Shown piece by piece: positions 4,519 to 40,659 of a stretch of DNA of 40,659 bases. The first letter of the stretch is position 1. Each line of letters starts with the position of its first letter. Source of the stretch: a virus. The notes below the pieces were generated by a model, which saw only the letters and a program-made list of their open reading frames with translations, searched no databases and had not been told where the DNA came from. The stretch covers positions 1-40,659 of IMG/VR virus record IMGVR_UViG_3300045453_000023. One strand, given 5' to 3'. A program made the translations under genes and the position numbers.

Positions 4519-4861
4519 TCGATTGACCCCAGCGCAGGCGGAGCGGCTGGCGCTGTTGTGTGAAGAGCTCGGCGAGGCCATCCAGGCCATCGGCAAAGTT
4601 CAGCGGCATGGCTACTGCTCGTATCACCCCGATCGCTTCGGAGGACCCGATAACCGCGGGCACCTCATGAAAGAGTTGGGGGATGTGCAGTTCGCCGTGG
4701 AGCTGCTGTGCGCGACGGCCGATCTTGATGAAGCGCAGATTTTGGAGATGAGAACGAAGAAGGCCAATCAGGTCTGGAAGTATCTCCACCACCAGGGCAA
4801 GGGCAAACGTCTGCATGCCGCCCGCTGGCCGCATACGCGACTGGAAGGAGAGACATCATGA
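4508..4861 (+). CDS. MazG-like nucleotide pyrophosphohydrolase
   Basis: A 117-residue all-helical protein with the MazG-type metal motif: E19, E20 and E23 in LCEELGEAI, then E56 and D59 in MKELGDVQFAVE. This is the ExxE...ExxD arrangement that binds Mg2+. Members hydrolyse NTPs or dNTPs to the monophosphate and pyrophosphate, and phage versions may alter alarmone or nucleotide pools. The length fits a single-domain MazG-like protein. It sits between the deoxyribosyltransferase-like gene and the methyltransferase, in keeping with nucleotide metabolism or DNA modification. Confidence 0.85.
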   Translation: MAFNRLTPAQAERLALLCEELGEAIQAIGKVQRHGYCSYHPDRFGGPDNRGHLMKELGDVQFAVELLCATADLDEAQILEMRTKKANQVWKYLHHQGKGKRLHAARWPHTRLEGETS

Positions 4862-13602: not shown

Positions 13603-14008
13603 CGCAGATATTCAATCGACGTGTCCGCATCGCTGGATTGATATCTCGATCTACGAAGTTCCGGAGCGGGCTCGATATGTGTGTATGAATTGTCGTGCGC
13701 AGTGGGAAGGCGAGCCGGGCAAGTGCCCCTGTCATCCTGAGGAGAAGCGCTCAGCATGGACGACCGAGAAGCCGCTTGCCGGCGAGCCGTTGTTTTATTG
13801 GATCAGGAACTACCGTTCTGTTTGTTGGGCTAAGAGTGTCTCAAACCATCCAGGCCCTGAATTAGTGCTCATCGAGCTGATGGATGGCGTGCCCTGGATC
13901 GTTTTTGTTCAGTATGGGCATAGGCGACGCAGCGTTGATATGTGCGGCGTTCCACTGGAAAGTGTAGTGGAAGCTGAATGGGCGGGCCCGTTGGAGCCGC
14001 CGACATGA
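13598..14008 (+). CDS. Cys-rich protein of unknown function
   Basis: A 136-residue protein. The N-terminal half has a likely zinc site (CPHRW, VCMNCRAQW, GKCPCH); the C-terminal half is a compact alpha/beta segment (LVLIELMDGVPWIVFVQYG). It is flanked by the two 34-base repeats and lies in the A/T-richer insert after terL. Function unknown. The ATG at 13598 lies at the end of the left repeat; an earlier in-frame start inside the repeat is unlikely. Confidence 0.6.
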   Translation: MNADIQSTCPHRWIDISIYEVPERARYVCMNCRAQWEGEPGKCPCHPEEKRSAWTTEKPLAGEPLFYWIRNYRSVCWAKSVSNHPGPELVLIELMDGVPWIVFVQYGHRRRSVDMCGVPLESVVEAEWAGPLEPPT

Positions 14009-14009
14009 A
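13976..14009 (+). repeat. 34-base direct repeat, right copy
   Basis: Right partner of the repeat at 13569-13602, 407 bases downstream, 31 of 34 bases equal. It provides the stop of the gene at 13598 and the start codon of the next gene. Confidence 0.85.
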
Positions 14010-14184
14010 ATCCGTGCTCGACCAGCTCCGCCTCCTGCTCGCCGAGAAGTGCCTCGCCATTGCCGTCACGCTTGCTCCTCGGAACGACGACGGCGTCGAT
14101 CTCATGGAATCCATCCGCGACTATCTGCAGCGGTCGCTGCATCGTGAAAAGCGGCGCCGTGGTGCCTCCGGGCACGGCGGCTGA
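14005..14184 (+). CDS. Small helical protein
   Basis: A 59-residue protein, MKSVLDQLRLLLAEKCLAIA to REKRRRGASGHGG. It is helical with a basic tail and begins within the right 34-base repeat, coupled by ATGA. Last gene of the insert between terL and the portal region. Function unknown. Confidence 0.5.
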   Translation: MKSVLDQLRLLLAEKCLAIAVTLAPRNDDGVDLMESIRDYLQRSLHREKRRRGASGHGG

Positions 14185-37546: not shown

Positions 37547-38026
37547 TCAATCGAGCGCCCGGGCCGGATCGCGGGTGTGGTCGCCCTCGCCGACGGCGTG
37601 CCACCAGCGGGTAATCGCGTCAGCCAGTGCGATCGACTCCAAGAGCGAGAGGCCGCGCAGGCGCTGGACAAGGTCATCCGGCTTGCTCACGCCCCATTTT
37701 TGATCGAGCTGATTGAGCCGGATGGAGTCGGCGACGTTGGCCCAAATAAATTGGGGCGACGAAAAATCCATCATCCAGCCATTACAGCTATCCAAAATCA
37801 GGCTGATTTCCTCAGGCGAAAACCGCTCGCGCAACGTCGGCCGGATCTCGGCAAGCAACCGGTAATAGCGCGCGAGGTCGCCATTGATCTGCTCACTCCG
37901 CACGTCGGCGCGCTCATCGACCCAGGCCAGCACTTGCGGCTCAATCGTGATCGAGATCGGTTTTTTGGGGTCGGCTTTTTTGCGCGGGGTCATCGTCGGC
38001 TTGCCGTTGGTCGGTTTTTTGGGCAT
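37547..38026 (-). CDS. RHH regulator with extra C-terminal domain
   Basis: A 159-residue protein. After a Lys/Pro-rich leader, PISITIEPQVLAWVDERADV then RSEQINGDLARYYRLL is a CopG-type ribbon-helix-helix. The C-terminal 95 residues are helical (RFSPEEISLILDSCNGWMMD, RLNQLDQKWGVSKPDDLVQR, LADAITRWW). AGGAGGAGG precedes the ATG. It is the last gene of a leftward three-gene operon whose promoter contains a palindromic operator, so autoregulation is likely (inference). Confidence 0.75.
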   Translation of the reverse strand: MPKKPTNGKPTMTPRKKADPKKPISITIEPQVLAWVDERADVRSEQINGDLARYYRLLAEIRPTLRERFSPEEISLILDSCNGWMMDFSSPQFIWANVADSIRLNQLDQKWGVSKPDDLVQRLRGLSLLESIALADAITRWWHAVGEGDHTRDPARALD

Positions 38027-38171
38027 CGGGTGATCCTCCTCCTAATTGTGCGAGGGCTTGCTCGATGAGCCGCCGGGCCTCGGCGACCTGGCGGCTCTTA
38101 AAATGGCGGCCCGACTCCCGCAGGAGCCGGACCGCCTCAGTGAGACGCTGGACGAGTTGCGGGTCGGCCAT
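37941..38171 (-). CDS. Small helical protein in the leftward operon
   Basis: A 76-residue protein, MADPQLVQRLTEAVRLLRES then RQVAEARRLIEQALAQLGGG and a charged tail (QKTDQRQADDDPAQ). Its last 86 bases overlap the start of the RHH gene in another frame. The real product may end earlier in function, but the stop is at 37941. It begins one base after the preceding gene's stop. Possibly a coiled-coil partner of its neighbours. Confidence 0.5.
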   Translation of the reverse strand: MADPQLVQRLTEAVRLLRESGRHFKSRQVAEARRLIEQALAQLGGGSPDAQKTDQRQADDDPAQKSRPQKTDLDHD

Positions 38172-38172
38172 A

Positions 38173-39309
38173 TCAGCCGGCGATCTCCGCGAGCGGGTGG
38201 CCTGAGCGGACCAGCGCGGCCCGCACGGCGCGCAGTGTGTATGTATCGCGACGCCGAGCCAGCAACCAGTCTGCGCGGACTCCGCCAATCTCGCCGCCGA
38301 CCTCGCGGCAGAGCTGCTGCCGGTACGCCTCCGTGCCGGAGGGACAATTGCCGCCCGCAATCGAGTCGGCCACGCCGACCCACACGTGCCCGTACTCCTG
38401 GCGATCTTGTCGCCGCTGAGTCCGCGCGGCCAGCATTTTAGCGCACGCACTACGGCGGATCTCGCGCACTCGGCGCTCAGCCCGATCGAGCGACGTGGCC
38501 TCCACGTGATACCCACGGATCAGATATCCGCGGACTGGGTGGACCGCAAATCCGCGCCCCTGCTCCACCCAGACGATCCGCGCCACACGCGGGCGATCGG
38601 GGATCGGCTCGTAGTCGAGGATGATCTGCCCGTCCGGCGTGCGCAACGTCGGGAATTTGACGAGCGCGCGGACCGTGACTGTGAGTGACACGGAGGAGTC
38701 GTGGCCGGACCATTTGCCGTTATCGCTCCAGACACGGGTGGAGTCGCCGCTGGCCGTGACACGGGCCGGATCGAGCGTCCACGCGACCGACACCGAGTGA
38801 TCACCGCCGGCCCAGCGGGACTCGGCGCGCTTGAGCGGCCAGTTGTCCGCGAGCGCGGCCGCGGCGGTACGCGCGGCCTCATCCATCGCCAGTCGCACGC
38901 CGCGGCGCAGTCCGACACGATCGAGCGCGTAGCGCTCGATCGTGTCCGCCGGCCAGGCGTGGCGGCTGAGCAGCTGGCCGATCAGCCGCGCCGGAATCGC
39001 CGGCGCGCCGTGTTGCTCGGCGTAGGCCGCGGCGCGCCGGAGCGCGGAGACCCGCTCCTCGTAATCGGTCGGGAGGCCGAGTCCGGCGCAGATCCGCTCT
39101 CCTCGTCGCGTATAGCGGTAGTCGGCGGCCGCCTCGGCGTTGCGCGACCAATGCCCCGTGAGCGAGGCGTACTCACGGACCGCGGGGCTCTGCCGGATGC
39201 GGCCGAGACGCGAGGCGAGAAACTTGATGGCGCCTCGTACGGTGGTAGCGGTGGAGCCGGCCGCCTGCGCCGCCGCGAGCACATCGGATATGGATTGATA
39301 GGTCAACAT
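38173..39309 (-). CDS. Unknown 378-residue protein, leftward operon
   Basis: Not recognised. The N-terminal part is helical (LTYQSISDVLAAAQAAGSTA, YASLTGHWSRNAEAA, RICAGLGLPTDYEERVSALR), the centre beta-rich (HSVSVAWTLDPARVTASGDS, VSLTVTVRALVKFPTLRTPD, QIILDYEPIPDRPRVARIVW), and the C-terminus holds GVADSIAGGNCPSGTEAYRQ with a second Cys soon after (QLCREVGG). ATG 39309 is chosen over a GTG four codons earlier. A strong promoter lies about 90 bases upstream. Because it is transcribed against the late operon and has its own regulator, expression in the lysogen is likely. Confidence 0.65.
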   Translation of the reverse strand: MLTYQSISDVLAAAQAAGSTATTVRGAIKFLASRLGRIRQSPAVREYASLTGHWSRNAEAAADYRYTRRGERICAGLGLPTDYEERVSALRRAAAYAEQHGAPAIPARLIGQLLSRHAWPADTIERYALDRVGLRRGVRLAMDEAARTAAAALADNWPLKRAESRWAGGDHSVSVAWTLDPARVTASGDSTRVWSDNGKWSGHDSSVSLTVTVRALVKFPTLRTPDGQIILDYEPIPDRPRVARIVWVEQGRGFAVHPVRGYLIRGYHVEATSLDRAERRVREIRRSACAKMLAARTQRRQDRQEYGHVWVGVADSIAGGNCPSGTEAYRQQLCREVGGEIGGVRADWLLARRRDTYTLRAVRAALVRSGHPLAEIAG

Positions 39310-39382
39310 GCTGCACCTCACTCGCCCGAGGGGTGGAGAGCCGCGCCCGTCGGGCTCGCGCTGCGCCGGCTCTGTAGTACGC

Positions 39383-39424
39383 TAATCATGTGATGATTAT
39401 CCTATAATAATATGATAGTGTCAA
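39383..39424 (-). promoter_or_regulatory. Strong sigma-70 promoter with palindromic operator
   Basis: Read on the minus strand, TTGACA (39424-39419) is followed after exactly 17 bases by GATAAT (39401-39396). The perfect palindrome TAATCAT-GTG-ATGATTA (39383-39399) covers the -10 box and start site, a classic repressor position. The area is the most A/T-rich in the window. It drives the leftward three-gene operon ending with an RHH protein. Confidence 0.8.
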
Positions 39425-39758: not shown

Positions 39759-40397
39759 TTAGAAATGCACGCTCACGCCGAAGACGGCGAGTTGGGCGCT
39801 ATACTGCGCCTTCACGTCCACGCCGCTGTTGGTGATGTTCTGGTGCTTGATCTCGGCGTAATTGTACTTCCACTCCCCAAAGATGCCTAGGTAGTCCGTG
39901 AGCTTGATCCGGAGGCCAGCCACCCCGTTGAACCCGGCGTTGACCGCATCGCTGTCGCCGGTGGCAAACTTCAGGTGCGACCAGAACAGTGCGACGCCGC
40001 CGCCGAGATAGGGCTCGAAGCGGCCGAGCTTGGCCCGCAGCATGAGGTTCGCCGGCGCCCACGTCCACAACCGATGCGGCACACCGTTGGCTGTTCCCAG
40101 GTTCACCCCGCTGAGCACCAGGGGTTGTTGCTTTAAGTTGGGGGTGGAGTAGTAGAGATCCGACTCTACGCCGATCCATGGTGCGGCGGCCGCGTAATAC
40201 CCGATCTTGCCTCCATATGCGATGGATGATGTTTGCGCGAAGTCGTTTCCTCTGATCGTCACGCCACCACTGCTCCATTCGACATGCCGCAGTGGGTCGG
40301 GGAAAAGTCCGCCCACTTGGCCAGCCATGTACACTTCCGCTTGCGCAGCGGTCGCCCATGCAAGCGACGCCACGATGGCCACGATCCATCGAACCAT
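39759..40397 (-). CDS. Outer-membrane beta-barrel protein, probable lysogenic-conversion gene
   Basis: A 212-residue protein with a signal peptide (MVRWIVAIVASLAWATAAQA, cleavage before EVYM) and an OmpA/OmpW-like eight-strand barrel pattern: alternating strands such as VYMAGQVGGLFPDP, SIAYGGKIGYYAAAAPWIGV, VPHRLWTWAPANLMLRAKLG, FEPYLGGGVALFWSHLKF, YLGIFGEWKYNYAEIKHQN, ending in the typical Phe (VSVHF). Ribosome site AAAGGAGG. It has its own promoter and lies next to the integrase on the circle, the usual place of genes expressed by lysogens. It may alter the host surface or block receptors (inference). Confidence 0.85.
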   Translation of the reverse strand: MVRWIVAIVASLAWATAAQAEVYMAGQVGGLFPDPLRHVEWSSGGVTIRGNDFAQTSSIAYGGKIGYYAAAAPWIGVESDLYYSTPNLKQQPLVLSGVNLGTANGVPHRLWTWAPANLMLRAKLGRFEPYLGGGVALFWSHLKFATGDSDAVNAGFNGVAGLRIKLTDYLGIFGEWKYNYAEIKHQNITNSGVDVKAQYSAQLAVFGVSVHF

Positions 40398-40478: not shown

Positions 40479-40659
40479 CTATAGGGAGCACTTTCCGATA
40501 ATCTGATCGGTCCGCTTTTGCAGGGCGGCCTGTAATGGCTTGACGGCGAGCCAGGCATACTTGGCCGTTTGGCTCAGGCTGCGATGCCCCAACTGGCTTT
40601 GTACGACACCCAGGTTTTCCCCCTGGTTCAGGAGATCGCTTGCCGTCGAGCGGCGCAGA
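40479..40659 (-). CDS. int: Integrase 3' end, second copy (partial, cut by window end)
   Basis: Encodes the C-terminal 59 residues of the integrase (from LRRSTASDLL to GKCSL) including the catalytic His and Tyr, 99.4 percent identical to 1-181. The only difference is a synonymous Leu codon. Directly downstream (leftward) is the barrel gene promoter region. If the genome is a circle this is the same gene as at 1-864. Confidence 0.9.
   Translation of the reverse strand, partial: LRRSTASDLLNQGENLGVVQSQLGHRSLSQTAKYAWLAVKPLQAALQKRTDQIIGKCSL

Follow-up and report, generated by a model that had tools for sequence, protein, structure and literature searches.

AcrIE10 is a type I-E anti-CRISPR protein of 113-116 residues (PDB 8JI9, 9M71, 9M7T and 9UER) that is carried on mobile elements. 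It forms a butterfly-shaped dimer (PMC12740422) and occupies the intermolecular groove of Cas7e, which stops assembly of the type I-E Cascade (PMC13131331). Acr-Aca fusion proteins, which inhibit CRISPR and also regulate their own expression, are known for Cas9 inhibitors (PMC13131331). AcrIIA11 and AcrIIA15 are fusions of this kind, directed against Cas9. Canonical acr-aca operons combine a strong promoter containing an inverted repeat with a small extra gene and a likely DNA-binding protein encoded last, and prophage morons or lysogenic conversion cassettes have an autonomous promoter, run opposite to their neighbors, lie beside the integrase and vary in presence. Here we compare these systems with a leftward operon in a viral sequence of 40,659 nucleotides (40.7 kb; IMG/VR record IMGVR_UViG_3300045453_000023), the whole of which we call the window. 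The reading that we favor, tentatively, is that the operon is a horizontally mobile accessory (moron) cassette with a strong promoter of its own, dedicated to counter-defence of the anti-CRISPR kind. The cassette as such is most likely anti-CRISPR-like and of a known general kind, with the unnamed but widespread protein family of its first gene as the new element.

The operon comprises three genes on the minus strand, encoding proteins of 378, 76 and 159 residues, and lies where it was originally predicted. The 378-residue protein (P0001, 38173-39309) has an ATG start and a GAGGTG ribosome-binding site, and the gene for the 76-residue protein (P0004, 37941-38171) starts one base past its stop. 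The 159-residue protein (P0002, 37547-38026) carries C-terminal motifs of the LDxKWGV...RFW type, belongs to a family related to AcrIE10, and its gene has a very strong ribosome-binding site, AGGAGGAGGAT, that can be read directly at 38033-38043 on the same strand. Codon statistics preferred the frames of the 378- and 159-residue genes over all other frames. The small helical protein of the prediction does have an open reading frame, which overlaps the 159-residue gene by 86 bases; its coding support is weak, at 0.02 bits/codon in the non-overlapping part.

Upstream of the operon, a sigma-70-type promoter, TTGACA-17-GATAAT (39396-39424, minus), agrees with the consensus at 11 of 12 positions and is the only match this good within the window, where 0.05 would be expected by chance. 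A palindrome, TAATCAT-CAC-ATGATTA (39383-39399), has perfect 7-bp arms and overlaps the 3' half of the -10 element, making it a putative operator, and by itself it is mildly unusual for such an AT-rich stretch (p ~0.1 against local shuffles). Both the strong promoter and the palindrome over the -10 had been anticipated and are present. Between the -35 and the -10 lies an imperfect second copy with ATCAT-3-ATGAT half sites and one mismatch (39404-39416), a possible second operator that is suggestive only. No intrinsic terminator was found 3' of the operon. The promoter and inverted repeat, the small extra gene and the candidate DNA-binding protein in last place all recall canonical acr-aca operons. 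However, the first gene product, at 378 residues and from an unnamed family, is far larger than a typical Acr, and a search of the operon for Aca families found no known one.

Among the relatives of all the operon proteins, only AcrIE10 is informative. A profile of nine P0002 relatives, searched against the PDB, matched all four AcrIE10 entries (9m7t, 9m71, 9uer and 8ji9) with E values of 2.7e-6 to 3.1e-6, over ~75 residues that include the Asn-Gly region and with ~30 bits, and nothing else in the PDB fell below E 0.04. A profile made without P0002 recognised both P0002 itself (103 bits) and the AcrIE10 segment (30.7 bits). Two single relatives (L089 and L091) also had AcrIE10 as their best matches in the whole PDB, at E 0.1-0.3. 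The connection depends on the family profile, as phmmer with P0002 alone did not find AcrIE10. An AlphaFold2 model of P0002, made with no alignment and no templates, was moderately confident (pLDDT 66). In a VIA-align 2 comparison with this model, the AcrIE10 chains were the top two of 163, with Z scores of 6.7 and 6.1 (the next was 4.4) and 103 of 113 residues aligned, which may reflect a similar overall fold, although Z scores below 8 can arise from a common helical arrangement. Foldseek with the same model found nothing significant in the PDB or BFVD. P0002 differs from AcrIE10 in its greater length and its Lys-rich N-terminal tail, and its conserved C-terminal motifs (LDxKW and RFW) fall outside the aligned AcrIE10 segment. 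Each of these lines is moderate, and in combination they make it likely that P0002 and AcrIE10 share ancestry. A shared fold is no proof of a shared function, and AcrIE10 may instead have branched off, as a specialist, from a family of regulators. A search for AcrIE10 relatives in IMG/VR by exact 8-mers, meant to show whether GNC genes (see below) accompany them, found none. The similarity suggests that AcrIE10 may be part of a wider family of longer proteins from environmental phages, perhaps doubling as autoregulators, and such a family would bear on the origin of anti-CRISPR proteins.

The 378-residue protein had been described as having no family. For the named libraries this holds, as Pfam, NCBIfam and PHROGs do not name its family, but in sequence space it does not. 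Used as a query, P0001 retrieved nothing related from IMG/VR, GTDB genomes, phages, plasmids or the PDB, and the family was uncovered only by a degenerate DNA pattern for the C-terminal motif DSxxxGNCxxGT, which in P0001 reads DSIAGGNCPSGT (residues 315-326). The pattern matches 49 IMG/VR contigs, ~40 of them non-redundant, and nearly all share the same layout, in which a residue run ending in V leads into DSxxAGNCxxGTxxF, which a variable link joins to a helical tail. Direct alignments of P0001 reached E 1e-18 with L078, in the C-terminal part, and E 4e-16 with L085. Against a family profile made without it P0001 scored 75.9 bits, compared with 5.6 for the best of 200 shuffles, and 18 sequences agree without exception at seven columns (D315, S316, G320, N321, C322, G325 and T326 in P0001 numbering). 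P0001 is a member of a widespread, unnamed phage family, which we call GNC; the remote homologues that the original prediction proposed to look for were found by the motif pattern, so the protein is not familyless. Two candidate names were tried and set aside: ARPP-1 (Pfam) matched at E 0.012, too weak to name a family, and the 'tail assembly chaperone' phrog_1196 gave a weak local match in two GNC members only (L044 and L080). An AlphaFold2 model of P0001 alone had a pLDDT of 40 and was too poor to use.

We searched P0002 against the genes surrounding GNC genes. It matched four of these, each downstream of the GNC gene and on the same strand; the two genes overlap in L058, are 44 bp apart in L061 and L077, and have one 60-aa gene between them in L053. 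L061 and L077 are two contigs of one phage, hence there are at least three further loci that bear the pair; on a naive estimate, chance would give the three placements with a probability of ~0.006. L058 has a GpA terminase and L077 a Terminase_6, which marks the phages as unrelated. In L058 and L061/L077 the pair is oriented against the neighboring genes, and a promoter-like site lies upstream of the cassette in all four pair-bearing loci, the window included (11, 10, 10 and 8 of 12 matches). The site in L053 is covered by an 8-bp inverted repeat (TGTAATAC/GTATTACA; p 0.003). A family with members on ~40 distinct IMG/VR contigs is tied by conserved gene order to an anti-CRISPR-related protein, which offers a guilt-by-association lead. 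Most other GNC contigs have no recurrent neighbor family in common. P0002 relatives also occur apart from GNC genes, in L086, L087, L089, L090 and L091, in some cases close to genes for a terminase or portal. L085 may have the pair as well: a few genes downstream of its GNC gene, at 13625-14122, is a possible but very divergent relative of P0002 (E 0.05).

The window belongs to a siphovirus with a lambda-type TerL and portal, a major head protein, a tape measure and a tail fibre J, and the phage is temperate. The ends of the record (1-181 and 40479-40659) are identical over 181 bp bar one mismatch and correspond to the 3' end of the integrase gene. In a relative whose integrase is 69% identical (L030), two small lipoprotein-like genes directly follow the integrase and lead on to the late genes. 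The shared ends and this gene order favor reading the window as a circular map, which places the operon between the late genes and the integrase. Although classed as linear, the record probably represents one full circle of ~40,478 bp. The accessory slot is bounded by the late genes and the tyrosine integrase (1-864, minus). In another relative (G006, 41.6 kb, near-complete, TerL 72%), the interval between late genes and integrase is 1.7 kb and holds a similar lipoprotein-like gene, and neither the GNC motif nor the P0002 motif occurs in it, the cassette being absent. The slot therefore varies between relatives, as expected for morons. With a promoter and putative operator of its own, an orientation opposite to the late genes and a variable slot that lacks the cassette in G006, the operon fits the self-contained module that had been proposed. 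The same slot of the window also holds a gene for an outer-membrane beta-barrel protein with a signal peptide (39759-40397, minus; PF13505, E 8e-10), which lies between the operon and the integrase and is a possible lysogenic conversion or receptor-altering gene. The small lipoprotein-like genes found in this slot in related phages (L030:8831-9593 and L031:15068-15394) may encode superinfection-exclusion lipoproteins. A host search by terminase gave a distant Nitratiruptor prophage as its sole result, and scans of genome contigs found no host for the phage.

We favor counter-defence because no operon protein has an informative relative other than AcrIE10. The promoter would act both on entry and in the lysogen, yielding the GNC protein, the 76-residue protein and P0002. 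P0002 dimers would bind the promoter palindrome, perhaps through a possibly RHH-like (ribbon-helix-helix-like) N-terminus, and limit expression of the operon, much as in Acr-Aca fusions; the likeness to AcrIIA11 and AcrIIA15, which likewise join CRISPR inhibition to autoregulation via a promoter inverted repeat, is one of role, and DNA binding by P0002 is something we infer. By analogy with AcrIE10, P0002 would also bind a Cas7-type subunit of the host CRISPR system and block assembly of the type I complex, and the GNC protein could be a partner or a second inhibitor, with the 76-residue protein as a further counter-defence factor. In the boldest form of this idea, which we consider unlikely, the GNC proteins make up a large counter-defence class of phages that has gone unrecognised, and P0002, on a mobile, self-regulating cassette, both represses the operon and blocks Cas7 assembly of type I CRISPR complexes; if true, P0002 would be a single-protein Acr-Aca directed at class 1 systems.

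The chief rival to counter-defence, which we regard as possible if doubtful, is that P0002 is only an autorepressor of RHH type, from the family that gave rise to AcrIE10, and that GNC is the effector in some other phage-host interaction. The N-termini of P0002 relatives do resemble a ribbon followed by helices, P0002 has a weak match to a PHROG repressor (E 0.03) and a basic, Lys-rich N-terminal tail, MazE was another weak match (E 0.02), and palindromes overlie the promoters of both the window and L053. The P0002 N-terminus is thus possibly ribbon-helix-helix-like, and autoregulation of the operon is plausible, with P0002 as the sole candidate regulator. However, no RHH family was significant for P0002, in Pfam or otherwise, and no Pfam or NCBIfam regulator scored above cut-off. 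Furthermore, its AlphaFold2 model has no N-terminal strand, most of its relatives are acidic (pI ~5), and the similarity to AcrIE10 continues past the RHH-like part and takes in the LNG region. The RHH regulator of the original prediction is therefore agreeable with the sequence pattern and the weak repressor match but not with the Pfam search, and is suggestive only.

Two further explanations assign the activity to GNC. In one, which the original prediction had put forward, the operon would serve phage-phage exclusion or another anti-phage defence expressed in lysogens, with GNC as the effector and P0002 as its repressor. The separate promoter, the orientation against the late genes, and a position adjoining the integrase would suit such a role, as would a slot that holds lipoprotein-like genes in relatives and an outer-membrane protein here. 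We found no specific support for it, however: PADLOC gave no match for P0001 or P0004 and only a weak one for P0002 (E 0.022), no nuclease, NTPase or membrane domain was recognised, GNC relatives are often found among small phage genes annotated without function, and the sole informative relative is an anti-CRISPR protein, so that we judge exclusion improbable. The other explanation, a toxin-antitoxin system in which a GNC toxin and an RHH antitoxin, P0002, stabilise the prophage, draws on the two adjacent genes, the possible RHH protein, a promoter that looks autoregulated and the MazE match. Yet the effector gene comes first, no toxin family was matched, and of ~37 non-redundant contigs with a called GNC gene just three carry a relative of P0002 too, which is at odds with obligate pairing. 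Since most GNC genes are found without P0002, we reject this explanation as highly improbable.

Elsewhere in the window, a divergent pair of small genes at 1144-1669 encodes a NikA-like/RHH protein on the minus strand and an RHH_1-like protein on the plus strand. The pair contains a TTGACA-17-TACAAC promoter at 1442 and may be a lysogeny switch without a CI-type repressor. The window also contains a 12-bp palindrome, GCAGACGTCTGC, in four exact copies (11008, 16105, 36872 and 37509) against 0.23 expected, with another at 4803 that has one mismatch. It often lies near gene ends or starts, and it is also found in loci of TerL-related phages (L005, L006, L007 and L010).
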